Shown in pieces: positions 43,064 through 59,274 of a DNA stretch of 64,000 bases. The stretch spans positions 2,480,001 to 2,544,000 of the forward strand of contig NZ_LT906434.1 of assembly GCF_900187305.1 (NCBI RefSeq), written 5' to 3'. Source of the stretch: Neisseria zoodegmatis. Its GTDB lineage: Bacteria > Pseudomonadota > Gammaproteobacteria > Burkholderiales > Neisseriaceae. Numbering within the stretch: the stretch's first letter is position 1; each line of letters opens with the position of its first letter. The translations under genes and the position numbers were made by a program. Below the pieces are notes generated by a model. It was given only the letters and a program-made list of their open reading frames with translations, did no database searches and had not been told where the DNA came from.

Positions 43064-43714
43064 TTAAATGCGGCTATTGTAATATTGGTATGCTTCATCC
43101 ATATTATCAAACTGATGCAGTCTTCCGGCCTCCAACACCATGGCATTATCGCAATATTGTTTCATCGCACTCGGGCTGTGCGACACCAAAATTATCGAAC
43201 GGTCTTTACGCTTTTCAAACAACTCATAGCGGCATTTCTCAGAAAAACGCGAATCGCCTACCGCAATCACTTCATCAATCAGATAACAGTCAAACTCCAC
43301 CGCAAGCGATAATGCAAAAGCCAGTCGCGCCTTCATACCTGAAGAATAACGTTTTACCGGTTCATACAGATATTGCCCCAGCTCGGAAAATTCTTCCGTA
43401 AATGCCTTCACATAATCGATATCGACGTTATAAATCCGACAGATGAAACGCAAATTATCCATACCGGTGAGACTACCTTGAAACGCCCCACTAAACGCCA
43501 ACGGCCAAGAGATGCTCATCGTGCGTTTAATCTCACCTTCAGTAGGCGGTTCCACACCACTGATCAGGCGTATCAACGTAGATTTACCTGCTCCGTTTCT
43601 ACCTAAAATACCGATTTTTTCACCTTTTTCCAGTTTGAAATCGATATCTTCAAGCACCATACGCCAACCTTGACGGGTTTGATATTTCTTATACACATGC
43701 TCAACGGAAATCAT
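43064..43714 (-). CDS. ctrD: Capsule polysaccharide export ATPase
   Basis: The 216-residue protein is the nucleotide-binding subunit (KpsT type) of the capsule ABC exporter. The Walker A motif is [11 protein letters not shown], the ABC signature is [15 protein letters not shown], and the Walker B is CYLIDEV followed by IAVGD. The N-terminus [17 protein letters not shown] is family-typical. It overlaps ctrC by 4 bases and closes the ctrABCD operon. Confidence 0.96.
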
Positions 43715-44508
43715 TGCGGTTCTACCCCCTTGCTAAACTTAGCCACCATTGCCAATCCGATAAATAACATGACCAAGTTGCATAATAATAAATACCATGG
43801 GTTTTCCAATGTGGTAACCGTATTGCCAAAATATCCCTGTCTGAACATCTCCGTGCCGTGCACCATAGGAATCCACAATATGTATTCTTGCGCTCGATGC
43901 GGCAATGTAGAGACAAAAAAGAAAGCCCCTGACAAAGGCAACATGACGAAACTTAAAGTACTCCACAGCTTGCCAAATACATCAAACTTGAACGCAATCG
44001 AGCAAATAATTAAGCCTAAACCAAATGCAAACATAGCCATCAGCAACCAAGCAATCAGCATATAAAAAATATCGGCCGGCATCTCTACCCATTTTATTGC
44101 AATGAAAACAGCCATAATCACAACTTGCGCGATGGTAGCTCCGGCAATTTCCAATAATACACGGGCCAAAATCGTATCAAGCACCCTTACATTTCTATGA
44201 TAAAGCAAGCTGGCATTCGCCGAAATCGCGCCCACCGCACGGTTGGAAGCATTACGCCACATCATAGCCATCGGGTAGCCAGTCAACATGAAAGCAACTA
44301 TATTTAGAGACGAAAATTGATCAGCCCTTACAAACTTCCAAAACATCACAATGATAAAGGTAAATAACAACGGTTCTACAAACAGCCACAAAAAACCAAT
44401 GTTATTGCGCCCGTAACGGGTAATGATTTCGCGCATCAAAAGCGCAACAACCACCCGTTTTTGAATCGCTAAAGACTCCCGAAAAGTAGTTTCGTGCAAC
44501 GCTTTCAT
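43711..44508 (-). CDS. ctrC: Capsule polysaccharide export inner-membrane permease
   Basis: The 265-residue, six-helix KpsM-type permease moves the lipid-linked capsule chain across the inner membrane. It reads [20 protein letters not shown] near the N-terminus, the ABC-2 signature, and ends in a hydrophobic helix. It overlaps ctrB by one base and ctrD by four, so the export genes are translationally coupled. Confidence 0.95.
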
Positions 44509-45743
44509 CAGTTTTTATGCTCTCTTACACTAGCAATCAACAAACTTAAAATACCATACAACATTAAACCAATAAAAAATGTTGCAACAATGTTGTATAA
44601 GCGTTGAGGTTTTAATGCCATATCCGGACGACTTGGCTTAGACACAACTTCAAGATAGAGCTGCTTGCGCTCCGCCTCGGCTTTAGCATTTTCCAAAGCA
44701 GCAATTGCTGCAGCCAATTGCTTCTCCGCCAACTCATTTTCCAAAAATAAACGCTGATATGCCGCAGCTTGTGCAGTGATAGAATTACTTGAGCCACCTG
44801 AAATCATCTGCATTTGCTGTTTGATTTCTCTTTGCAGGCTTTTTTCACGTGCTTTCAAACCGGGAATCTGGGGATTTTCCGGAGTAACCGCTTTTACTTG
44901 GTCTAATTGCGTTTGAATAACGATTAACTCATCCTGCAGTTTCGACACCAAATTCATCTGTGCTTCAGATTGGGCTTTTAAGTCAAAAATACCGTTTTTA
45001 GTGCGATACACAGCCATTTCTTCAGCCGCGTTTTTAACACGCTCCTCCGCCACAGCAACGTTTTGCTGAGCTTGCTCAATAGTATCTTTACGTGCACGGG
45101 CATTCAGCTTATTAATTAACTCCTCTCCCCTGCTGAGCAAAGCTGCATTGATTTGCTGTGACTCTTTGGCGTCAAACGACTCCACCGCCAATGTAGAAAT
45201 GCCGGATACAGGATCAAAAGCAATGTTGATTTTTTCTTTGTAATATTGATAGAAAGCCTCAGCTGAATCTCGGAAACCAAAACCATTGAAGCGGCTGAAT
45301 ACATCACCTTTCTCTTCATAATAGGCGCGAATAGGAATGGTTTTGCTCAATTCTCCTAAAGCTGTGCGCGAACCCATATACTCACGAACAGTATAAGTAT
45401 CGTCTTGCGAGCGGGTAAATCCTGCACTCTGTAATAAAGCACCCAAACCACCGGTCGAAGCTTGATTATGAGGGGAACGCACCACAAAACTAGATTCAGA
45501 CGTATATTGATCTGCAGCCCATCCTGAAAAATAAATCAATGAGCATACTGTGGGAATAATAATCGCAGCCCAAGCCAATGGTCCGGGCTTAGCTATTCCA
45601 ATTTGCTTTTTCTTGTGTTTCCTATTTATATCATGCTGAGGATTATTTTTACTTTCCTGTTTTAATTCAGCTTTTTCCTGAACACTTTCTGTATCTGTAT
45701 TTTTTTCAGACATCTTTAATTTGTACTTTCTATTCGCTATCAA
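44508..45743 (-). CDS. ctrB: Capsule export inner-membrane polysaccharide co-polymerase-like protein
   Basis: The 411-residue KpsE/CtrB protein bridges the inner-membrane exporter and the outer-membrane CtrA channel. It has membrane helices near residues 55-75 (PLAWAAIIIPTVCSLIYFSG) and at the C-terminus, with a long periplasmic region rich in coiled coil (about 210-370) between them. The cytoplasmic N-terminus is highly charged (Lys, Glu). It overlaps ctrA by 4 bases. Confidence 0.95.
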   Translation of the reverse strand: MIANRKYKLKMSEKNTDTESVQEKAELKQESKNNPQHDINRKHKKKQIGIAKPGPLAWAAIIIPTVCSLIYFSGWAADQYTSESSFVVRSPHNQASTGGLGALLQSAGFTRSQDDTYTVREYMGSRTALGELSKTIPIRAYYEEKGDVFSRFNGFGFRDSAEAFYQYYKEKINIAFDPVSGISTLAVESFDAKESQQINAALLSRGEELINKLNARARKDTIEQAQQNVAVAEERVKNAAEEMAVYRTKNGIFDLKAQSEAQMNLVSKLQDELIVIQTQLDQVKAVTPENPQIPGLKAREKSLQREIKQQMQMISGGSSNSITAQAAAYQRLFLENELAEKQLAAAIAALENAKAEAERKQLYLEVVSKPSRPDMALKPQRLYNIVATFFIGLMLYGILSLLIASVREHKN

Positions 45744-46909
45744 TTAGCTATATTGTTAATACTGTTTACACCACTTACCACTGGAGAAAACACAAACTGC
45801 AAGAACTTCTGCATTTCAGCCAGCGGAGCATTGGCCACATACACAATGTCTTTATCCTTCATAGGAAATTTCTGTAACCAAAACAACGAATTTGCATCCA
45901 GAAGATTCATTCTGTAAACAGTTGGCACTTCCATTGAAATATCATAGCCTTTGGCCAACCACTTTTCTTTCTCTTCTTGAGGCAGCAACTCTAAAGGCTG
46001 ATATCGAAACACAAAAATACCCTTAGGATTGGCACGCCGATCCAACAAACCGCCGGAAGCGCCAATCGCCTCGCCTAAATTCATACCCTTGGCCGAAAAG
46101 GAGATTTGCTGGTTTTTACCAAGTGCCCCCAATGCAGTGAAACTGAGAGGCTTCGAAAGCAAAGTGATCACATCACCCGGCTGCAAAACAACATTTTGCG
46201 CCGGTTGGGCCGTAATCGTTTCCAAAGCAACCGTACGAACCATGTTTCCACGGGTCATCTGTACCGATATATCTTGTACCCCACTATCCGTTCCGCCAAT
46301 AGCAGCTACCGCATCTAAAACACGCTCGCGATGGCCGGTTAAAGGCATTCTGATACTGCGCCCGGCTCGAATTACCGTAGCATTGCTGGAGTTATTTTGC
46401 ACAACCCTCACCATGGCCTGCGGCTGGTTCGCCATTTTTTTCAGACGGCCTACAATCTCTTTTTGTATCCGCACCGGAGTTTTTCCACTAACCGGCACAT
46501 TCCCTAAAAAGGGCACCGAAACCATGCCCTGAGTATCCACAATCTGCGGAGGCAAGCTGACTGTTTGAGCAGAACCCGAACCCACTGAATTCAAAGCCCC
46601 ACCAAAAAGTACAGCCGGAGCCGCTTCCCACAGAGTGATTTCGAGCACGTCTCCTGCTCCCACTGCATCGGCAAAACGTGCATTGCCCACACCAAAATCA
46701 AGAAATGACTGCTGTTGTGCCAATGAGTAAAAAGAGGACAGTACACTCTCATCAATATCGACTACAGCAACATCAGGCACAGTTACCTGCACCTGATGAT
46801 TTTTTAAATTTATAACCTCAATTTGATTCGGCCCTGATGTTGGCAAATTACCACAACCATTCAAAGCTACTGATATAAAAATAACGCCCACGGCCTTATA
46901 TATAACCAT
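45740..46909 (-). CDS. ctrA: Capsule export outer-membrane lipoprotein
   Basis: The 389-residue Wza-like protein forms the outer-membrane channel for capsule export. It has a lipoprotein signal (ALNGC, Cys19), a polysaccharide-export domain (GDVLEITLWEAAPA) and SLBB-like domains (VQNNSSNATVIRAGRSIRMP). A DUS lies inside the gene near 46440. It is the first gene of ctrABCD and is read away from wecB. Confidence 0.95.
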   Translation of the reverse strand: MVIYKAVGVIFISVALNGCGNLPTSGPNQIEVINLKNHQVQVTVPDVAVVDIDESVLSSFYSLAQQQSFLDFGVGNARFADAVGAGDVLEITLWEAAPAVLFGGALNSVGSGSAQTVSLPPQIVDTQGMVSVPFLGNVPVSGKTPVRIQKEIVGRLKKMANQPQAMVRVVQNNSSNATVIRAGRSIRMPLTGHRERVLDAVAAIGGTDSGVQDISVQMTRGNMVRTVALETITAQPAQNVVLQPGDVITLLSKPLSFTALGALGKNQQISFSAKGMNLGEAIGASGGLLDRRANPKGIFVFRYQPLELLPQEEKEKWLAKGYDISMEVPTVYRMNLLDANSLFWLQKFPMKDKDIVYVANAPLAEMQKFLQFVFSPVVSGVNSINNIAN

Positions 46910-47164: not shown

Positions 47165-48412
47165 ATGGAAGAAAAACTATCAGTTGGTAACATCTCTTCA
47201 ATCCCCTCTAACTTACCCACTTTCAAATTGCCATATTCGCATAACAATAATGAGAATAAGGTAGTCTCAAAAATGCCGAGACTATTGGTTGTTTTTGGGA
47301 CAAGACCTGAGGCTATTAAAATGGCTCCGTTAGTTGATGGCTTAAAAAAAAGAAAAATCGATTTTCGAGTGTGCGTAACTGGACAACATCGCCAAATGCT
47401 TGATCAAGTCTTGGATTTATTTGAGATCACTCCTCACTATGATTTAGACATTATGAACAGTAAACAAACTTTGTCTACTGTGACATCAGCCATTCTTCAG
47501 AAAATACAACCTGTTATCGAAGATTACAAACCAACTGTTATTTGCGTTCATGGTGACACAGCCACAACATTGGCAACATCTTTAGCCGCTTACTACAACC
47601 AAATCGATATTGCCCACATTGAAGCCGGATTAAGAACCAGCAATATCTATTCACCCTGGCCGGAAGAAGGCAATCGTAAAATTACCGCCGCGGTAGCTAA
47701 ATATCACTTTGCACCTACTGAAAGCACAAAAAACAACCTGCTTCAAGAAGGAGTGTCTGCCCAAAACATTTATGTAACGGGCAACACCGTTATCGACGCT
47801 TTATTTTTAGCTTGCCAAAAAATCGAAAGCAAAAAAGAACTTCTAGAAAAATACGAGAATGAATTTTCTTATTTAAAAAATAAGAAAATCGTATTGATTA
47901 CGGGACACCGCCGAGAAAACTTCGGAAACGGCTTTGAAAATATTTGCCAAGCGATATCAGAATTAGCCGCTCAAAATCCTAACGTAGAGTTCGTATATCC
48001 TGTCCATCTCAACCCAAGTGTACGCGAACCCGTAAACCGTTTACTGGCAGGCAAATCCAATATCCATTTGATCGAACCTTTAGATTATCTGAGCTTCGTT
48101 TACTTAATGAAAATGTCTTACGTCATCCTAACCGATTCAGGTGGCATTCAGGAAGAAGCCCCTTCTCTAGGCAAACCTGTGCTGGTGATGCGAGACACAA
48201 CAGAGCGCCCTGAAGCAGTAGAAGCAGGAACAGTAAAACTGGTAGGCACTTCTCAACAAACCATTATTGAACAAGTAAATTTGTTACTTAACAACCAACG
48301 TGAGTATGAAAAAATGGCGGGAGCACACAACCCATACGGAGATGGCACAGCCGTAGACAGGATTCTCGCTATCTTTACCAACGAACAAATAAACCAACAA
48401 CTTGCCATTTAG
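47165..48412 (+). CDS. wecB: UDP-N-acetylglucosamine 2-epimerase (non-hydrolysing)
   Basis: The 415-residue cytoplasmic enzyme converts UDP-GlcNAc to UDP-ManNAc, the first committed step for the capsule precursor. It shows VFGTRPEAIKMAPLV, HIEAGLRTSNIYSPWPEEGNR, TGHRREN and LTDSGGIQEEAPSLGKP. Compared with usual WecB proteins (start at MPRLLVVFGTRP, base 47273) it has a 36-residue N-terminal extension. The upstream ATG has a GGAAAA site while the internal one has none, so the extension is kept. It heads the synthesis operon. Confidence 0.95.
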   Translation: MEEKLSVGNISSIPSNLPTFKLPYSHNNNENKVVSKMPRLLVVFGTRPEAIKMAPLVDGLKKRKIDFRVCVTGQHRQMLDQVLDLFEITPHYDLDIMNSKQTLSTVTSAILQKIQPVIEDYKPTVICVHGDTATTLATSLAAYYNQIDIAHIEAGLRTSNIYSPWPEEGNRKITAAVAKYHFAPTESTKNNLLQEGVSAQNIYVTGNTVIDALFLACQKIESKKELLEKYENEFSYLKNKKIVLITGHRRENFGNGFENICQAISELAAQNPNVEFVYPVHLNPSVREPVNRLLAGKSNIHLIEPLDYLSFVYLMKMSYVILTDSGGIQEEAPSLGKPVLVMRDTTERPEAVEAGTVKLVGTSQQTIIEQVNLLLNNQREYEKMAGAHNPYGDGTAVDRILAIFTNEQINQQLAI

Positions 48413-49824: not shown

Positions 49825-52737
49825 ATGAATATATTGATTTTTGGTAGCTGTGTAACAAGAGATGCTTTTACCTTTGATAAGGCGGATGCATTTAAACTCG
49901 TTCGATATTTTGCACGCAGCTCGTTGGCAACCGCATTTAACTCTGTCAAAGTTGAAGATAGTTACACAGAACAATTGAAATCACCATTTCAACGAAAAAT
50001 TGTACATGCTGATTTTTGCAAAGAGTTTACCAATGAGCTTGTCGATAAACAATATGATTATCTGATTTTAGATTTTATAGACGACAGATATGATTTATTT
50101 AAATTTTCCGATGGTGGTAAGGTTTTATTGACTGCTGAATTAAAACAAACCGACTTTCTTAAAAGAAACCAAGACAAAGGCCGAATTGTTTCCGGTTGGT
50201 CAGAAGAATGGTTTCAAGAATGGCAAAAGGGCTGCTTGCAATTTATTAAAAAAGCTCAAGAACACAACTTATTGCCAAAAATCTTACTCAACAAAGTATA
50301 TTGGACCCCCCAACTTACCAACGGGGAAATATTTTATGACGAAACGAAAGTGATACAAGCGAACAACTTCCTTGAGCGACAGTATGGCTTTATTGAGAAG
50401 TTTTTAAACCACAATAATACCTTAAATTATACCTCTGATGTACTTTATGCGAATAAAGGACACATGTGGGGACTAAGTCCATTTCATTATATAGACGAGC
50501 TTTACCTGCTTATGCTAGATCAACTGAAAGATGACTCATTGCGCGCAGAAATCCGCAATGAGCGTATTTCAGCATCAAGCGGAGTAGAAGTTGTAGCGAA
50601 TACATTAACCAATCAACCTCTTTCAAATATGAAACAAAGTTTTTCAAACGAGCTTCATACCATTAAAGAGCAGTTATCCTACATCCGTAAAAATTCCCGC
50701 CAGCAATTGCAGCTAACTCAACAATTGCAGGATAAAAGCACTCAATATGAGCAAACCATTCATGAACTGACTAAAAATCTGGAAAAGGTAAAAGCAGAGT
50801 TGAATGCAGCAAACCAAAAAATTCAACAAACCAAACAACAGTTAGAAAATACGCTTTCGTTTAAGCTAGGTTACACCTTAATTCATTCAACCAAATCATT
50901 TGGCAATTTTATCTCCTTACCAGGTGATTTAATTAAGTTAATGAGCTATGCCAAATCCAAAAAAGAAAATAAAAACTTACCTTCCATAAAAAAAGCTGTT
51001 AAATCAAACTCTTTCCCTAAAGTTGACAGTCAATTTAAAAAGCAGTACGGCATTAGGTTTATTTCAATTTTGGATGAAATATCTCATACCTCGTTTGAAA
51101 GTGAATTTCAGCTTTTCCAATTGAACAAAACCACCTTTGAAGCACAAATCAAAGGCTCTTCATCTTCGGGCTTTTTAATTGAAAGCTGCTGGAAAGGCAA
51201 TTTTGGTGCTTGGGAATACGCCTTTACTTCTCCCAACTTGCAACACCAAAACGCCCAAAATTTATTGAAAGCCTTAGATATCGCAAAAGAACGTAACTTC
51301 CCAATAGTCTTTTGGAATAAAGAAGATCCAATGCACTACGAGAAGTTTTTACCCATTGCATCAAAATGTGATGTGATATTCACAACCGACAGCAATAAGG
51401 TCAAAGATTATCAACGCGATGTACCGAATGCCAAAGTGGATACTCTGCTTTTTGCTGCCAATATCAACATCTGCAACCCTGCCAACCGTTTCCGTAAAGA
51501 GCATGAAAATATCTGCTTTGCCGGATCTTATTACGGTGTAGGCCATGACGATCGCAAAAAACAAATGGATGCCTTATTGCCTACTATTATCAAATTTCAA
51601 GGAGCCATTTACGACCGAATGTCTCAAACCGGCAACGAACGTTATGCCTATCCTCGTAAATACCGTAAATTTATACGTCCGGCTGTTCCATTCAGAGAAA
51701 TTGTAGATATTTACAAACAGTTTAAAATCTTTTTGAATGTAAATACCATCACTGATTCTCCAACAATGATGTCCCGTCGTGTTTATGAATTGCTGGCATG
51801 CGGCACCCCAGTGATTTCCACACCATCTATGGCTATTGATGAGCAGTTTAAAGGCATTGTCCAAGTAGCCAAAAATGCCAAAGAAGCTAATAAAATTGCC
51901 AAAAGATTGCTGGAAAATGAATGGGAATGGCTAAGGATTTCACATCTTGGCTATCGCGAAATTATGCTCAAGCATACTTATGAGCACCGTGCTGTTCAAA
52001 TTGCCAATTCATTGGGAAAAAATATTCAGCAGGAGAAACCTTTAGCCAGTATTGTAGTCGCATCAAACCGCCCTCACTTTATCGACAGGATTGTTCAAAA
52101 CCTTAGCCAACAGGTTTATCCCAATGTAGAAGTTATTGTGATTGCTCAGAAATATACTGATGAGCAATTAGCTGAATTGGAACGTAAACTGAATAATAGC
52201 GGAAAAACATTTAAATCCATTCAGATAGTGCGTAACGACTCGGAAGATACATTGGGCAAACGCCTTAATCAGGGAATTTCACTATCAAAAGGCGAATATA
52301 TTGCCAAGTTTGACGATGATGACTTTTACTTCCCCAGTTACCTACAAGATATGCTCATACCTTTTAAATTTGGCGACTATGGTATTGTGGGTAAAAAAGA
52401 AATCTTTATTTATCTAGAGGGTCAAAACAAAACCTTTGTCCGTTACAAAGGACAACGCCATATGGAAACCGATTTTCTAACAGGTGCAACCCTAGTATTT
52501 TCAAGAAAAGCCCTAGCACAGCTTTCTTTCGGTGATTTAAATCGGGGAGAAGACTCAAATATTCTCGAGCAAGCCAAAAAATTAAAAATTAAAACATATG
52601 TTGCAGACCCGTTTAACTTTGTTGTTTATCGCTCCAAAGAGCTGTCTAACCATACTTGGCAGGTAGAAGATAAATTTTTCACTGATAAGGGTGTATTTAT
52701 AGGAGAAGGTTTGGCTGAGGATACAGTTAAACTATAG
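49825..52737 (+). CDS. Multidomain capsule glycosyltransferase (DUF6270-like, coiled coil, GT, GT2)
   Basis: The 970-residue protein has four parts. Residues 1-235 resemble DUF6270 (start MNILIFGSCVTRDAF), an SGNH-like domain of unknown role. About 270-345 is Gln- and Lys-rich coiled coil. About 390-735 is a CgeB-like glycosyltransferase with FWNKEDPMHYEKF, NVNTITDSPTMMSRRVYELL and CGTPVISTPSMAID. About 745-970 is a GT2 domain with IVVASNRPHFIDRI and the metal motif KFDDDDFYFP. Two transferase modules in one chain suggest a polymerase adding two alternating sugars, such as ManNAcA and a partner. The gene is AT-rich, unlike the flanking housekeeping genes. Confidence 0.8.
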   Translation: MNILIFGSCVTRDAFTFDKADAFKLVRYFARSSLATAFNSVKVEDSYTEQLKSPFQRKIVHADFCKEFTNELVDKQYDYLILDFIDDRYDLFKFSDGGKVLLTAELKQTDFLKRNQDKGRIVSGWSEEWFQEWQKGCLQFIKKAQEHNLLPKILLNKVYWTPQLTNGEIFYDETKVIQANNFLERQYGFIEKFLNHNNTLNYTSDVLYANKGHMWGLSPFHYIDELYLLMLDQLKDDSLRAEIRNERISASSGVEVVANTLTNQPLSNMKQSFSNELHTIKEQLSYIRKNSRQQLQLTQQLQDKSTQYEQTIHELTKNLEKVKAELNAANQKIQQTKQQLENTLSFKLGYTLIHSTKSFGNFISLPGDLIKLMSYAKSKKENKNLPSIKKAVKSNSFPKVDSQFKKQYGIRFISILDEISHTSFESEFQLFQLNKTTFEAQIKGSSSSGFLIESCWKGNFGAWEYAFTSPNLQHQNAQNLLKALDIAKERNFPIVFWNKEDPMHYEKFLPIASKCDVIFTTDSNKVKDYQRDVPNAKVDTLLFAANINICNPANRFRKEHENICFAGSYYGVGHDDRKKQMDALLPTIIKFQGAIYDRMSQTGNERYAYPRKYRKFIRPAVPFREIVDIYKQFKIFLNVNTITDSPTMMSRRVYELLACGTPVISTPSMAIDEQFKGIVQVAKNAKEANKIAKRLLENEWEWLRISHLGYREIMLKHTYEHRAVQIANSLGKNIQQEKPLASIVVASNRPHFIDRIVQNLSQQVYPNVEVIVIAQKYTDEQLAELERKLNNSGKTFKSIQIVRNDSEDTLGKRLNQGISLSKGEYIAKFDDDDFYFPSYLQDMLIPFKFGDYGIVGKKEIFIYLEGQNKTFVRYKGQRHMETDFLTGATLVFSRKALAQLSFGDLNRGEDSNILEQAKKLKIKTYVADPFNFVVYRSKELSNHTWQVEDKFFTDKGVFIGEGLAEDTVKL

Positions 52738-52801
52738 TGACATATATATTCCATGAAATATACATAAATTTATTATTTTATTACTGTGCGACTTAATTAA
52801 T

Positions 52802-54790
52802 ATGACACAATCAAACCCTTACGAGCCATCTATACATAATTTTCTTTATATTCAACGACCTATTGTCGAAGAAAATACTGTATTTTTTGAATGGAACCTT
52901 GATTACGATGAGCAAAAATCAGTAAACAATATATATATTGATTATTGCGATTTGGATATTTCATTGGTTCCATTGCAAGTCCACTATAATACAATTATCG
53001 GATTACTTTTAAACAAGTTAAGAAGCTCTGCTATTCCCACTATCGTAGTAACCCAAGATACCATACTAGAAGATATTGCTAAATTTTGGGTGTCTTACCA
53101 CAACCTGAAAAATGTTTATTTTTCCAATACTGAAAATGCTTTTTTAAGCAAATATCATATTTCTTCTTCGGAAGGTTCTGTCGGTATCTTATATGGCGGA
53201 GGGAAAGATTCTTATTGTGCTCTTGATATTTTGAGTAAAAATACCAAAATCAAACAAGTCAATTTAATCTCATTCGTTATCCCTGATACACATGTAAATA
53301 TTCAGCAGTTGGAAGAACGCAGGGATAATTTGATTCTTAGCCCCATATCCAATCAATACAATATTAATGTTTTTAAAATAAAAACCAATGCCCGTGCTGT
53401 TATTAAAGGCTACCATTTAGAATTGTATTTTGCACCTCTTGGCGTATTGGCTTGGTTAAATTTATTTGAATACATTACGTTTAGCTATGAATACTGTCAT
53501 TACTTTGTTCCTTTGAGCAAAGGTATGGGATTCGGTTTTGAACGCTCTCAGGTAGCCCACATTCAGAATATCAGCAACTTCTATTCATACCTGTTTTCAC
53601 ACCAGCCAGTAACCATCTTTAATGCCAACCAGCATCTATCCGAGCTTTCCGGTTTTGGCTATTTGTCAAAAAATAATGCCGATTTTTATAAAACGCTCGT
53701 AATGTGTGAGTCTACTGTTGATGTCAACCAAAAATGGTGCTGCTCCTGTACCAAATGTGCAGAATTTGTTTTATTTTCGGAGTTTTATAATTTAGGACAA
53801 TCCGATATTGATATAAATTGGTTTTTCAGTGAATCTTCATGGATAAACAAAGTCATTGACGAATTAAAACAATCGGAGAAAAAAGGTCCTTTCTTCAAAG
53901 GATTAACTTTTACACTTCATTTTGATTCATTCAAATTTGTGATTACCAAATTGAAAGACAGAGGCTTTGCTTTCCAAAACCGCAAAGCACAAAACAACTT
54001 TGATTTATTGGTTGAGCATTATTACGATAGGAGTATTCGCTCTGAAGATTGCTTTTATACCGACATATTAAATCAGGTTTATCCACCAAGCCTAAAGCAA
54101 GAAACATTTGCCCTGCTTAAGGCTGTATTGCCTGATTCGTTGGCTCCCAACAAAAAATCTTCAGGAATGGGCACACTTAGCTTTAACGCTGATTTACAGC
54201 CGGAAATTTACCAAGGCAACGTTAAAATTTCATCGGCTGATTTTTATACCGCATTAACGAATAAAAACCGGTTTCCCAAGCTCAATAACGACCCGTTGAA
54301 TGCTTATATACAAAATTATAAAGTTAAAACTTTAGGTACTTTAGCTAAAGCCAATTTATCCGTTGACGTTCATGCTTCTTACTGCGATGTGTGGATTGAT
54401 AAAAACCCTCCAATGAAAGACGAAGGATATGAAATATCATTAACAATACCGGTAGCCAAATCATTTAATTACTGTAGATTCAGGATAGAAATACCCCATC
54501 TAAGTGCCGAATTGGATAGCAGGTTTTCTTTTTCTGTAACTGTAAACGGTAAAACCAAGCCGGTTTCTTTGGCTGAACATAGAAATGTAATTTGCCAATT
54601 TGCGATAGAGAATGCCGGCAAAACAAACGGCTTTATTTCCATTCAGTTTTCAGTACAGGCAGTGCGGAATTTAGAGCCGTGGAGATGGGGTGCTGCGAGC
54701 AGGATAATATTGAGTGATATAAAGTTATATGAAACCCAAATATTATTAGATTATGAACATGATAAATTTATTTGTAACTTAAACTCATAA
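52802..54790 (+). CDS. Capsule-locus protein with PP-loop ATPase-like N-terminal half
   Basis: The 662-residue protein is not of a family I can name. Its N-terminal half has VGILYGGGKDSYCALDIL near residues 127-144, matching the SGGXDS PP-loop of ATP pyrophosphatases, followed by alternating strands and helices. Near residue 315 it has the cysteine cluster KWCCSCTKCAEFVLF. This combination resembles MurL (ATP-dependent glutamate epimerase) and other AMP-forming PP-loop enzymes. The C-terminal half from about 480 is beta-rich, perhaps carbohydrate-binding (YEISLTIPVAKSFNYCRF). It lies between two transferase genes, 4 bases before the next, so a role in modifying capsule sugars is inferred. Confidence 0.65.
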   Translation: MTQSNPYEPSIHNFLYIQRPIVEENTVFFEWNLDYDEQKSVNNIYIDYCDLDISLVPLQVHYNTIIGLLLNKLRSSAIPTIVVTQDTILEDIAKFWVSYHNLKNVYFSNTENAFLSKYHISSSEGSVGILYGGGKDSYCALDILSKNTKIKQVNLISFVIPDTHVNIQQLEERRDNLILSPISNQYNINVFKIKTNARAVIKGYHLELYFAPLGVLAWLNLFEYITFSYEYCHYFVPLSKGMGFGFERSQVAHIQNISNFYSYLFSHQPVTIFNANQHLSELSGFGYLSKNNADFYKTLVMCESTVDVNQKWCCSCTKCAEFVLFSEFYNLGQSDIDINWFFSESSWINKVIDELKQSEKKGPFFKGLTFTLHFDSFKFVITKLKDRGFAFQNRKAQNNFDLLVEHYYDRSIRSEDCFYTDILNQVYPPSLKQETFALLKAVLPDSLAPNKKSSGMGTLSFNADLQPEIYQGNVKISSADFYTALTNKNRFPKLNNDPLNAYIQNYKVKTLGTLAKANLSVDVHASYCDVWIDKNPPMKDEGYEISLTIPVAKSFNYCRFRIEIPHLSAELDSRFSFSVTVNGKTKPVSLAEHRNVICQFAIENAGKTNGFISIQFSVQAVRNLEPWRWGAASRIILSDIKLYETQILLDYEHDKFICNLNS

Positions 54791-54794
54791 ATTA

Positions 54795-55775
54795 ATGAAA
54801 ATATATTTAATTAGTGATGGATTAACTCAAAAATCCTTATCACTAGAACAAACTGAAATCAGCTTTAATTGGTTTTATCTTAACCATCTCAAACAATCGT
54901 TTTTATTGGTTGAATCCGCTTGGCTCGGCTATAAAAATCGGTGGAAATACAAAATCGCATCATATCCTGACGATCCCAACCGTACTAACAAAAAGTTAGT
55001 GCAGTTAGTTCAGACGGCCAAAGACAAGGGGATCCCAACTGTTTTTTGGAATAAAGAAGACTCGATTCATTTTGACCGCTTTATTGATTCTGCCAAACAT
55101 TTCGACCATATTTTTACCGTAGATCAAAATTGCGTAGAACGATATAGAGCAGTTGTGCCATCAGAAACTACGGTTGATGTAGCCATGTTCCCTGTTCAAC
55201 CTCGAATCCATAATTATCAAGGGTTTAATTTTAAGTATATGACCGCCAATTTTATTGGCAGCTACAGCAAACATATCCATAATAAGCGCAGGGAGCGGCA
55301 AGAATTATTGTTTAGAGCAGCTGCCAAAGCAGGTCTGCCAGTAACGATTTTTGATCGAAATTCTGATAGAAAATCAGATAATTACCGCTACCCAGAAGAA
55401 GAATTCAGTTTAACGGTACGCCCTGCCGTAGATTATATGCAAACTGCCGATATCTACAGGCAATTTGCCGTATCGCTTAATGTGAATACGATTGAAGATT
55501 CTCCAACTATGTTTTCCCGTCGTGTGGTAGAAGTGTTGGCTTGTGGTGGTATTTTAGTTTCGACACCAAGTTTGGCGATGGATAGGTTATTTAAAGATTA
55601 CTGCCATATTGTTCACTCTGAAGATGAGGCAGTAGCTTTATTTGAGCGTTTAAAACATGGCCCGTCCAAACAAGATTTAGAAATGGCTAAGGCTGGTGCA
55701 GATTTTGTGTTGAATCATTTTACATGGCAAAAATTTTTGGAAAAAATCGAAGCAGTGATTGCTTCTAAAAAATAA
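54795..55775 (+). CDS. CgeB-like glycosyltransferase, paralogue of the middle domain of the 970-aa protein
   Basis: The 326-residue protein matches the third part of the 970-residue protein along its length: FWNKEDSIHFDRF, then HIFTVDQNC, RPAVDYMQTADIYRQF, NVNTIEDSPTMFSRRVVEVL and CGGILVSTPSLAMD. This is the nucleotide-sugar-binding pattern of a GT-B transferase. It begins 4 bases after the PP-loop gene. It may add a first or side-chain sugar. A near-complete DUS lies in the coding sequence around 55010. Confidence 0.8.
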   Translation: MKIYLISDGLTQKSLSLEQTEISFNWFYLNHLKQSFLLVESAWLGYKNRWKYKIASYPDDPNRTNKKLVQLVQTAKDKGIPTVFWNKEDSIHFDRFIDSAKHFDHIFTVDQNCVERYRAVVPSETTVDVAMFPVQPRIHNYQGFNFKYMTANFIGSYSKHIHNKRRERQELLFRAAAKAGLPVTIFDRNSDRKSDNYRYPEEEFSLTVRPAVDYMQTADIYRQFAVSLNVNTIEDSPTMFSRRVVEVLACGGILVSTPSLAMDRLFKDYCHIVHSEDEAVALFERLKHGPSKQDLEMAKAGADFVLNHFTWQKFLEKIEAVIASKK

Positions 55776-55776
55776 T

Positions 55777-57810
55777 ATGATGCTCTCCAGCTTAGGTTTA
55801 TATCTACAACATAAGCATTTGCGTGCTTTTTTGCCCTCTAATATTCGATGCAATAATTATTTTGTGTTGTGGGGAAAAAAACATCCCAAACGCAAGTTTG
55901 TTGCTCAACATTTATTTAAACTGCCCACTGTTTATTTAGAAGACGGCTTTCTACGCTCAATCGGCCTAGGCGTAACAGGCTGCCCGCCGCTTGCTTTGGT
56001 TGTTGACGATTTAGGTATTTACTACGACACCACCCGCACGTCGCGTTTGGAGCAGTTGGTTTTGGCTGCGGACAGCATGCCGTCTGAAATCATTGAAGAT
56101 GCTAGAAAAGCAATCGGCCTTATCGTTGCAAACAAACTTTCCAAATACAACCATGCACCAATCTTTTCAGACGGCCTCTCTGTCCAAAGGCCGTCTGAAA
56201 AAGAAGTTGTGTTGGTTATCGACCAAACTTTCGGCGATATGGCGGTGCAATACGGAGGCGCGGATACAGATACTTTTAAGCGCATGTTTCAGACGGCCTT
56301 ATCTGAAAATCCCGATGCGGAAATCTGGGTTAAAACCCATCCTGATGTATTGAGCGGTAAAAAACGCGGCTACCTTACCGATCTCTCCACCCATGCGGAA
56401 AATGTACGTTTGGTAGCAGAAAACATCAATCCGATTTCCCTTTTGGAGCAAGCAGACAAAGTTTATTGCGTTACTTCTCAAATGGGATTTGAAGCCCTGC
56501 TGCTGGGCAAGCCCGTAGTAACTTTCGGGCTACCGTGGTATGCAGGCTGGGGCGTTTCTGACGACCGCCATTCCGGTGTAGCCGGTTTAACCGCACAAAA
56601 ACGTCGCGCCCCCCGCTCGCTGTTGCAGCTTTTCGCTGCCGCCTATCTGCAATACAGCCGCTACATCAACCCGAACACAGGTAAAACAGGAACGATATTC
56701 GATGTTATCGACCATCTTTCCTCTGCCCGCCGCTTAAATGAAAAGCTGCGCGGCAATCTTTACTGCGTCGGCATGTCTTTGTGGAAACAGGCAGTGATCA
56801 AGCCGTTTTTCAACGTACCCTCTTGCCGCCTGCACTTCGTTTCGTCCTTCAAAAAACTGGAAAAATCTGTATTGCCACCTGATGCACGGCTTTTGGTTTG
56901 GGGAAACGGCAGTCAGGAATCGGCTGATTTTGTGCAAAAACACAATCTGTCCGTACTGCGAATGGAAGACGGTTTCATACGTTCGGTGGGATTAGGCTCC
57001 AATCTGGTGCCGCCGCTCTCGCTCGTTATCGACGATCAAGGCATTTACTTCAACGCAGAACAGCCTTCCCGCTTGGAACACATTTTGCAGAGCCGCGAAT
57101 TTACCGCACAGGATTTTCAGACGGCCTCTTATTTGCAGCAAGCACTTACCGAAGCGGAAATCAGCAAATACAACGTCGGCAACGGCACGCTCGATATTCC
57201 GGAGACCGACCGTAAAGTACTGCTGGTGCCCGGTCAGGTAGAAGACGATGCTTCCATCCGCCACGGTTCGCCTGAAATCCGCACTAATTTGGGTTTATTG
57301 AAAAAAGTGCGCGAGCTGAATCCCGATGCCTACATCATCTACAAACCCCACCCTGATGTTGTGAGCGGCAACCGCGTCGGCGCAATTCCGCCGGAAGAAA
57401 CATCACGCTATGCCGACCAAACCGTTACCGAGTGCGACATCCTCACTTGCCTGAAGCATGCGGATGAAGTGCATACCATGACTTCACTGTCCGGATTTGA
57501 AGCTTTATTGCGCGGTAAAACCGTACATTGCTACGGCCTGCCGTTTTATGCCGGCTGGGGATTGACTCAAGATTATCTGCACCTGCCGCGCCGCACTCGA
57601 AAATTAGCGTTATGGGAACTGGTAGCTGGCACCTTGATTCATTACGCCTGCTATGTCCACCCTGAATCAAAGCACCCAACAAACGCCATCACAGCCATTG
57701 ATATTCTGTGTGAACAAAAAGCAAAATTACAACACACCGATTTATTTTCCAAACACTTTATTGGCAAGCAATGGGGGAAATTCAAACAAATTTGTTTACT
57801 ACTAAAATAG
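55777..57810 (+). CDS. lipA: Capsule lipid-anchor Kdo transferase (KpsC type)
   Basis: The 677-residue cytoplasmic protein has two related halves, as in KpsC/LipA, which add alternating beta-Kdo residues to lyso-phosphatidylglycerol to start the capsule anchor. The repeated motif is visible: YLEDGFLRSIGLG and MEDGFIRSVGLG, KTHPDVLSG and KPHPDVVSG, GLPWYAGWG and GLPFYAGWG. ATG 55777 is preferred to a TTG at 55759 that overlaps the upstream gene. At least four DUS copies lie within the coding sequence (56166-56205, 56290, 57116), encoding segments such as SDGL and RPSEKE. Confidence 0.95.
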   Translation: MMLSSLGLYLQHKHLRAFLPSNIRCNNYFVLWGKKHPKRKFVAQHLFKLPTVYLEDGFLRSIGLGVTGCPPLALVVDDLGIYYDTTRTSRLEQLVLAADSMPSEIIEDARKAIGLIVANKLSKYNHAPIFSDGLSVQRPSEKEVVLVIDQTFGDMAVQYGGADTDTFKRMFQTALSENPDAEIWVKTHPDVLSGKKRGYLTDLSTHAENVRLVAENINPISLLEQADKVYCVTSQMGFEALLLGKPVVTFGLPWYAGWGVSDDRHSGVAGLTAQKRRAPRSLLQLFAAAYLQYSRYINPNTGKTGTIFDVIDHLSSARRLNEKLRGNLYCVGMSLWKQAVIKPFFNVPSCRLHFVSSFKKLEKSVLPPDARLLVWGNGSQESADFVQKHNLSVLRMEDGFIRSVGLGSNLVPPLSLVIDDQGIYFNAEQPSRLEHILQSREFTAQDFQTASYLQQALTEAEISKYNVGNGTLDIPETDRKVLLVPGQVEDDASIRHGSPEIRTNLGLLKKVRELNPDAYIIYKPHPDVVSGNRVGAIPPEETSRYADQTVTECDILTCLKHADEVHTMTSLSGFEALLRGKTVHCYGLPFYAGWGLTQDYLHLPRRTRKLALWELVAGTLIHYACYVHPESKHPTNAITAIDILCEQKAKLQHTDLFSKHFIGKQWGKFKQICLLLK

Positions 57811-57861
57811 AACAAGTGTTATAGTTATAACTATTTTATAAAAAATAATTGAATTATTATC

Positions 57862-59274
57862 ATGGGAATCGTGCACACCAAAAGCAATTTGGAAAATTTG
57901 ATTTTCCAAAATCAACGCATCCTGCTATTGCAAGGCCCTATCGGGTCTTTCTTTAAAAGTTTCGGCGATTGGCTGCGTTTGAACCATCAAAAAACCGTGT
58001 TTAAGCTTAATTTTAACTACGGAGATGAAGTTTATTACCCTCTAAGCACCGGCGATACTTTCGCCTACCGAGATACTTATCAAGCTTTCCCTGATTTTTT
58101 AACCCAATTCATCACCGAAAATGAAATCGACGCCATCGTGTGCTTTGGCGATACCCGTCCTTATCATATCGTCGCTAAACAAGTGGTCGAAAAGCTTGGA
58201 TTAAGCTTTTGGGCATTTGAAGAAGGGTATTTCCGCCCCGCTTACGTTACTTTAGAACAAGATGGCGTTAATGCTTTTTCGCCCATTCCACGTGAAGCTT
58301 CTTTTTTCACGGAACAATTCTCTACCCTCAAACAACAAAACTATCAAGATCCTCCTGCAATCAAAGGTGGTTTTGTGCCTATGGCCAAATGTGCCATCCG
58401 TTACTATTGGGCAAAGAACAGCAAACACAAACGATATCCCCACTACATCCACCACCGTTGCAGCAGTATCCCGAATTATATCCGTTCGTGGGCGATTTCC
58501 GGCGTAAAACGTGCGGCCTATATGTTTAAAGACCGCAAATTCAGTCAAGAAATTCAAAGCGGCAAGTACGGCAAATTTTATATTCTGCCGCTGCAAGTAT
58601 TTAACGACAGCCAAGTTCGCATACACAGCGACTTTTCTTCGGTTCAAAATTTTTTACTGCATGTATTGGCTTCCTTCGCCACGCATGCACCTGACGGCAT
58701 CAACCTGATTGTCAAACACCATCCTATGGACAGAGGGTTTACTGATTACCGAAAAACCATTAATCGGTTTATCCGCCAACATCCCAAGCTAAAAGGCCGC
58801 GTTTTTTATGTGCATGATGCCCCGCTGCCCGTATTTTTGCGCCACGGCATCGGCATGGTCACGCTGAACAGCACTAGTGGTCTTTCAGCGCTAATCCACG
58901 ATATGCCGGTGAAAGTGCTCGGACGTGCAAACTACGATATTTCAGGCATCACATTTCAAGGAAGCCTGGCTGAATTTTGGAAAAAGCCGACACCGCCCGC
59001 CCCTGACCTGTTTCACGCCTATCGGATGTACCACATCAACACTACGCAGATTAACGGCAGTTTTTACAGCACGGTTAATTTTCCTAAAATCTCCAACAGC
59101 GCCCCGCAGAATCATGCCTGTATCGAGAAAACCATGTTGTCCAGCCCTATGCAGACACATTGTCGATTGGAGTCTTTAACCTACGCCCCTATTCATAAAG
59201 CCTCTACCCACCATTCGGAAGCCAAAAGTCTACACAGCGTTTCCATCCGCAATATTCACAACGGGCCTAAATAA
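57862..59274 (+). CDS. lipB: Capsule lipid-anchor Kdo transferase (KpsS type)
   Basis: The 470-residue KpsS/LipB adds the first Kdo of the capsule anchor. It reads LLLQGPIGSFFKSFGDWLR, then AFEEGYFRPAYVTLE, LIVKHHPMDRGFTDYRK and TLNSTSGLSALIHDMPVKVLG, all family motifs. It has a C-terminal tail of about 60 residues, polar and His-rich, that I do not recognise. It ends the capsule operon at a DUS terminator. Confidence 0.94.
   Translation: MGIVHTKSNLENLIFQNQRILLLQGPIGSFFKSFGDWLRLNHQKTVFKLNFNYGDEVYYPLSTGDTFAYRDTYQAFPDFLTQFITENEIDAIVCFGDTRPYHIVAKQVVEKLGLSFWAFEEGYFRPAYVTLEQDGVNAFSPIPREASFFTEQFSTLKQQNYQDPPAIKGGFVPMAKCAIRYYWAKNSKHKRYPHYIHHRCSSIPNYIRSWAISGVKRAAYMFKDRKFSQEIQSGKYGKFYILPLQVFNDSQVRIHSDFSSVQNFLLHVLASFATHAPDGINLIVKHHPMDRGFTDYRKTINRFIRQHPKLKGRVFYVHDAPLPVFLRHGIGMVTLNSTSGLSALIHDMPVKVLGRANYDISGITFQGSLAEFWKKPTPPAPDLFHAYRMYHINTTQINGSFYSTVNFPKISNSAPQNHACIEKTMLSSPMQTHCRLESLTYAPIHKASTHHSEAKSLHSVSIRNIHNGPK

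Follow-up and report, generated by a model that had tools for sequence, protein, structure and literature searches.

Modifications of capsules are usually ascribed to acetyl-, pyruvyl- and glycosyltransferases. What, then, does a gene with the marks of a PP-loop ATP pyrophosphatase do in the middle of the capsule locus of Neisseria zoodegmatis? We analysed a window of 64,000 nucleotides (contig NZ_LT906434.1, positions 2,480,001 to 2,544,000), in which wecB, wecC, the polymerase gene, the PP-loop-like gene, a csiE-like glycosyltransferase gene and lipA/lipB follow one another, with ctrDCBA divergent upstream. The answer that we consider probable on balance is that the product is a cytoplasmic PP-loop ATP pyrophosphatase, remotely MurL-like, which tailors a ManNAcA-containing, ABC-exported capsule by adenylating the C6 carboxylate of ManNAcA. 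The features of the locus are given below; the names ctr, wec and lip are our own assignments by homology.

43064..46909, minus strand: ctrD, ctrC, ctrB and ctrA, capsule export genes (names assigned by us; locus L005 has them in the same order next to the homologue)
47165..48412, plus strand: wecB/csiA-like UDP-GlcNAc 2-epimerase (homology; csiA homologue according to the available part of PMC6202450)
48467..49735, plus strand: wecC/csiB-like UDP-ManNAc dehydrogenase, which makes UDP-ManNAcA (homology; csiB homologue according to the same part of PMC6202450)
49825..52737, plus strand: presumed capsule polymerase, 970 aa, with DUF6270 (residues 5-222), Glyco_trans_1_2 (residues 603-727) and Glycos_transf_2 (residues 743-856) (Pfam)
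52802..54790, plus strand: PP-loop-like capsule region A protein, 662 aa, ATG start (open reading frame list and translation)
53195..53212, plus strand: GGGKDS, residues 132-137, presumed ATP-pyrophosphate-binding loop (motif and invariance)
53705..53758, plus strand: C302...W312-C313-C-S-C316-T-K318-C319, presumed zinc-binding cluster (motif and invariance)
54152..54787, plus strand: poorly conserved C-terminal region, residues 451-662 (identity comparison of family members)
54795..55775, plus strand: csiE-like glycosyltransferase, Glyco_trans_1_2 (Pfam and blastp)
55759..59274, plus strand: lipA and lipB (Capsule_synth; KpsC/KpsS-like; Pfam/NCBIfam)

The gene has the placement of Neisseria capsule region A, between the ctr and lip genes and together with wecB/wecC and glycosyltransferases. 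The csiE-like glycosyltransferase is 38% identical to the first glycosyltransferase domain of the polymerase. The window contains 59 copies of GCCGTCTGAA, which we take to be the Neisseria uptake sequence, against 0.11 expected.

Region A of N. zoodegmatis NCTC 12230 has been catalogued before. In the available part of Clemence et al. (2018, PMC6202450) it comprises NEIS2736, NEIS2737, NEIS2949, NEIS2971 and NEIS2742, in that order, and Table 1 gives NEIS2971 as 'Hypothetical', with 48% identity and a G+C content of 34.7%. The gene order in the window is the same, and the G+C contents of the PP-loop-like gene (34.7%), wecC (42.3%) and the csiE-like gene (37.8%) equal the values in that table (PMC6202450, same part). 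For wecB and the polymerase the values are 0.6 points off the table, perhaps due to the choice of start. Because gene order and G+C values agree, the PP-loop-like gene is almost certainly NEIS2971. The initial annotation had placed the gene between capsule glycosyltransferase genes and downstream of wecB-wecC, where it does lie, and had known of no capsule enzyme described with such an architecture. The second statement needs amending: the 2018 paper already lists the gene, as hypothetical, among those of capsule region A, with no function given in its available part, and we found none in the literature covered, which is mostly open-access. What is new here is the proposed function; the gene itself is not.

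Two motifs mark the protein. GGGKDS satisfies the PP-loop ATP pyrophosphatase pattern [S/G]GG-x-D-S, with Gly in place of the usual first Ser, as also in MurL. The second motif is WCCSCTKC at residues 312-319, the cysteines including 302, 313, 314, 316 and 319. In 20,000 residue shuffles of the 662-aa protein, [GS]GGKDS never arose, CxxCxxC arose 74 times and the two never arose together. From these residues we infer a PP-loop fold, a bound zinc and the use of ATP. AlphaFold2 run without homologues gave a mean pLDDT of 31.5 for the whole protein and 28.8 for residues 119-349.

We found four members of the family in all: the protein in the window and those of genomes G134 (locus L005), G1040 (L066) and G435 (L003/L011). 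By genome set, the counts of members were: relatives, 2 of 149; class, 3 of 369 (including one that is noise); phylum, 1 of 398; order, 2 of 359; G435 order, 1 of 19; and G134 family, 2 of 121. These sets overlap, and all but the last two include the window's own genome. A match in G428 (L004, 88 columns) was rejected as noise, as it contains five stop codons. Back-translated patterns matched 14 and 125 stretches in genome contigs and 93 and 17 in viral contigs, none of which was confirmed as a homologue, and tblastn found no homologue in plasmids or phages. When plasmids were searched by blastn with stretch 49825-55775, the one match was a 120-base glycosyltransferase stretch in the polymerase. 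Blastn of E. coli genomes returned no homologue at the DNA level, a comparison that would overlook relatives with 50% protein identity.

Among the three capsule members, identity is 55-59% over residues 1-450 and 27-31% in the remainder. The fourth member, from G435, shows 24-26% identity over the N-terminal part and has no C-terminal region. The residues that do not vary among the four include GGGKDS, E171 and R173-D175 (ExRRD), H205, S228 and E230 (SxE), H233-Y234, M301-S304, W312-C313-x2-C316-x-K318-C319, F341-F342, E344-S345 and W347. Both motifs noticed in the initial annotation, the loop and a cysteine cluster of the MurL/QueC type (C302, W312, C313, C316, K318 and C319), are thus present and invariant in 4/4 members. 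The C-terminal half that it set apart is far less conserved and missing from the fourth member; its description of that half as beta-rich matches only a no-confidence model. The gene is real, conserved and rarely found, a presumed capsule modifier with the marks of a PP-loop protein.

Conservation extends to the operon. Locus L005 matches the window locus gene for gene (ctrDCBA, wecB, wecC, polymerase, PP-loop-like gene, csiE-like gene, lipA, lipB). L066 has the same order from wecB through wecC, polymerase, PP-loop-like gene and csiE-like gene to lipA, with a lipB-like gene across wecB. Five capsule-specific genes are therefore found together in identical order in three genera. The DUF6270 domain is carried by the polymerase in the window (Pfam) and in L005 (full-length blastp match). 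In L066 it is found at the C-terminus of the PP-loop protein, which has 902 aa with a DUF6270-like domain at residues 667-898 that is 33% identical to residues 1-234 of the window polymerase; the L066 polymerase is 80-81% identical to that of the window from about residue 300 on, and lacks DUF6270. The two L066 genes between which this shift is seen are:

L066:10293-13001, minus strand
L066:13004-15346, minus strand

As DUF6270 has been attached once to each, these arrangements suggest that polymerase and PP-loop-like protein may work together. DUF6270 starts with GSC-x-[ST]RD and ends with H-[KM]-W-G-x-x-P-[FY]-H-Y, which to us look SGNH-hydrolase-like. A DUF6270-like protein with another tail also stands free in sister loci (L033:1801-2949).

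The same domain shuffling, and the long, poorly conserved extra C-terminal region, would suit a degenerate PP-loop protein with a scaffolding role for the polymerase. We regard this as highly improbable: GGGKDS, ExRRD, SxE and the cysteine cluster are invariant in 4/4 members, and conservation is much higher in the N-terminal domain than in the remainder.

The fourth member has a different setting, with genes for LicD, a cytidylyltransferase, an ATP-grasp protein, a glycosyltransferase and a heparinase II/III protein as neighbours. A wecC homologue (63%) lies about 13 kb off and a wecB homologue (56%) about 15 kb off; the other wecC match in G435 is only 30%. All four members are thus near a wecB-wecC pair that includes the best wecC match, in the same operon in three and at about 13 kb in the fourth. 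Since three of the four represent one operon type, the wecBC link perhaps rests on two independent events. Because its locus has LicD, cytidylyltransferase, ATP-grasp and heparinase genes, the substrate of the fourth member could be another acid. It should also be considered that the window protein itself acts on a different capsule component, or on a non-capsule metabolite, by activating a carboxylate or some other group there, its place in the operon reflecting a horizontally moved cassette. The low G+C content of the gene (34.7% against 46.7% for the window) fits an acquired cassette, and the fourth member's LicD, ATP-grasp and cytidylyltransferase neighbours also point that way. However, the five capsule-specific genes are kept in order in three genera and the changing position of DUF6270 links the protein with the polymerase, so we consider such a substrate unlikely and retain ManNAcA.

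Sister loci bear on whether the gene makes the chain or modifies it. Of 83 Neisseriaceae genomes, 10 have a csiE-like gene, one of them being that of the window, and the other nine csiE loci gave no match to the PP-loop-like protein at E 1e-3 among open reading frames of at least 120 aa. Near the position of the PP-loop gene they carry, for example, hydrolase-like, DUF6270-like (blastp), putative rhamnosyltransferase, polysaccharide deacetylase, pyruvyltransferase and heparinase genes. The PP-loop-like gene is absent from G060 (L038), where the polymerase nevertheless shows 58% identity over 645 aa. Because the gene is missing from nine csiE loci and a close polymerase occurs without it, these data suggest an accessory modifier and not a chain maker. 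In one sister locus for a ManNAcA capsule, the stretch of the PP-loop gene is occupied by a 774-aa protein with SGGKDS (L033:2956-5280, minus strand). Its Pfam Asn_synthase score is 17.5, below the gathering score of 21, and its best NCBIfam match, asparagine synthase at 1.2e-7, is also below cut-off. As read, this protein starts MAIF; as there is no Cys at position 2, the glutaminase nucleophile seems to be missing.

We next consider kinship within PP-loop proteins. For the PP-loop-like protein, Pfam returned no family up to E 1, and PHROGs a single match at 0.072. NCBIfam returned only TtcA (0.09) and CysD (0.19), far below their cut-offs and both aligned across GGGKDS; we take both to be PP-loop families. 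PDB sequences gave no match up to E 10, either for this protein or for a MurL-type protein. The loop pattern is therefore present where a match to a curated family profile is not. An AsnB-type amidotransferase, with glutaminase and Asn_synthase domains, was rejected, as no Pfam domain matched up to E 1.

The initial annotation had paired the protein with MurL. By the curated model it is no MurL: NF041275 (cut-off 700 bits) gave no match to the window protein up to E 1 and none in genome G000 at E 0.001. The sole NCBIfam lead came from the fourth member, which matched MurL_Xanthmoales at 15.9 bits (E 0.0034) over its CGNCYKC stretch. A profile of 26 aligned MurL-type proteins (L008, L009 and 24 of the further matches) was then compared by hhalign. 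The N-terminal domain of all four members matched it at E 1.5e-4 (probability 52%, 351 columns, 21% identical), the three capsule members only at E 9.3e-4 (probability 22.5%, 173 columns), the window protein alone at E 0.0029 (171 columns) and the fourth member alone at E 5.9e-10 (62 columns). Controls gave 0.5 (reversed), 0.034-0.65 (ten column-shuffled MurL alignments) and 0.075-0.67 (ten other operon proteins). In a joint alignment of the four members with three MurL-type rows, 26 columns are invariant, including GGGKDS, one His, SxE, one Cys and WCxxCxKC; C302, W312, C313, C316, K318 and C319 are invariant in the MurL-type rows as well. What survives of the pairing is thus a remote profile similarity with shared invariant residues, and the profile search against PP-loop families that had been recommended yielded this weak MurL link in place of a significant Pfam or NCBIfam match.

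These shared residues come in the same order in both proteins, with the single Cys before WCxxCxKC, and are colinear over the 351 columns. The differences are larger. The fourth member is only 18-19% identical to the three MurL-type rows, and the capsule protein is extended at its C-terminus by about 200 aa. NHQWSKG and HKPFECVGE, each column of which is conserved in at least 90% of the 26 MurL-type proteins, are absent from it. In L008 and L009 the MurL genes adjoin MurD-like genes (by eye), whereas the PP-loop-like gene has capsule neighbours and no MurD2. With these differences and a result below the NF041275 cut-off, we rejected an identification as MurL.

The link to MurL also appears unspecific, because the Asn-synthase-like protein of L033 matches the family at similar strength (E 6.5e-4, over 38 columns only; MurL against the same protein, 0.21). 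A joint profile search of 350 genomes of the class gave matches in 15. Long matches besides those in G000 and G435 were found in seven genomes, six of them MurL-type (G157, G160, G312, G420, G310 and G308) and the seventh G421; weak matches of 56-116 columns were found in six genomes, including G257. The G257 protein (L075:1156-2286), an uncharacterised 376-aa PP-loop protein with TGGVDS and CGVCEKC (CGxCxxC) and no polysaccharide genes beside it (by eye), matched at E 9.6e-9 over 84 columns around the loop, more strongly than MurL. QueC likewise has a PP-loop followed by a Cys and CGxCxxC (weak colinear match to ten QueC proteins, E 0.015 over 176 columns); it differs in having SGGxDS and not GGGKDS, only about half the length of the capsule protein's N-terminal domain and very low similarity, and TIGR00364 (QueC) did not match the window protein up to E 1. 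Asparagine-synthase-like uronate amidotransferases of the WbpS type are a precedent for PP-loop carboxylate activation beside polysaccharide. A glutaminase domain was not found in the PP-loop-like protein, in contrast to that type, and the Asn-synthase-like SGGKDS protein belongs to sister locus L033. Sequence comparison would therefore place the capsule protein with PP-loop proteins carrying a QueC/MurL-type cysteine cluster, MurL not clearly being its nearest kin because L075 matches better around the loop. One MurL-like protein seen on the way (L074:13-1380), beside a MurD-like gene, has GGGIGS in place of GGGKDS and is possibly an altered or inactive MurL.

In the preferred reading, ManNAcA is adenylated, as the capsule-specific region supplies this one obvious acid. 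The protein, held together by a putative Cys4 zinc site, would bind ATP at GGGKDS and move AMP onto the C6 carboxylate of N-acetylmannosaminuronic acid during cytoplasmic capsule synthesis, more probably on the growing chain or in the polymerase complex than on free UDP-ManNAcA. ABC-exported capsules are made whole in the cytoplasm, which helps the case for the chain. Substrate, second step and action on the chain rather than on UDP-ManNAcA are what we infer from this setting. In the second step an amide would be formed with ammonia or a small amine, slightly likelier than C5-epimerisation; as a claim in its own right, amide formation is tentative. PP-loop enzymes mostly put their acyl-adenylates to this use (NAD synthetase, Asn synthetase, QueC, diphthamide synthetase). 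The H. influenzae type d capsule has amide-linked amino acids. Amidation is weakened because the capsule-specific region showed neither a glutaminase domain nor a gene for making an amine. In V. cholerae VPS, GulNAcA carries glycine, an amidated aminouronic acid (PMC3901696, available part). The Asn-synthase-like protein of sister locus L033 also fits amidation.

The other branch of the same reading is an ATP-driven C5-epimerase: C6 of D-ManNAcA would be adenylated, the C5-H acidified, C5 inverted and the adenylate hydrolysed to leave L-GulNAcA. We think this possible but doubtful. The missing NHQWSKG and HKPFECVGE count against it, and most PP-loop enzymes form C-N or C-S bonds. The C5-epimerases of alginate and heparan are not known to use ATP, and a protein turning in-chain ManNAcA into L-GulNAcA would be the first C5-epimerase of a polysaccharide uronic acid to run one way and be driven by ATP, a claim that we hold just as doubtful, if not a shade more so. 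In favour of inversion, MurL, the nearest characterised relative found, uses ATP, gives AMP and inverts the carbon beside a carboxylate, a like course of steps being proposed for it at the alpha-carbon of Glu, although in the available parts of these papers the acyl-adenylate is hypothesised by the authors and not proven (PMC8788868, PMC5808125). Inversion at C5 of ManNAcA has also been proposed for V. cholerae VPS, with no enzyme named in the part available (PMC3901696). The capsule of meningococcal serogroup I is built of alternating GulNAcA and ManNAcA (PMC3647402, in part). In species with loci of the present kind, similarity to that serogroup is 71-74% for the first gene (csiA), 83-89% for the second (csiB) and 76-86% for the last (csiE), the first gene of N. 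canis being an exception (PMC6202450, in part). However, serogroup I is listed with csiA-E only and without a PP-loop-like gene, and the difference between the I and K capsules may reflect purification methods, both according to the part of PMC3647402 available.

If the protein activates a uronate, ABC-exported capsules could remove or reshape negative charge with ATP in the cytoplasm. It would then be a candidate for amide formation on, or C5 inversion of, ManNAcA, for which the parts of the literature examined name no enzyme. If it is an in-chain C5-epimerase, MurL-type chemistry would operate outside peptidoglycan.

The sister loci offered two further observations. A tail domain of about 100 aa with G-[LFWY]-[FY]-[KN]-Y recurs at the C-terminus of otherwise unrelated capsule modifiers (hydrolase-like, DUF6270-like, putative rhamnosyltransferase and GT2). 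The proteins that carry it are:

L031:2818-3915
L031:3925-5112
L033:1801-2949
L033:5298-7664
L034:11758-12948
L035:1746-2921

Among seven tails compared by hhalign, 7 of 21 pairs fell below E 1e-3 (best 4.8e-15), and the recurring tail may be a shared polymer- or partner-binding domain. The C-terminal region of the PP-loop protein was tried as a further copy and rejected (profile E 0.14; single tails at best 0.0098). Finally, heparinase II/III-like proteins lie inside or beside two wecB-wecC polysaccharide loci (L039:10339-11928 and L011:11589-13358), and it is possible that both are uronate lyases.
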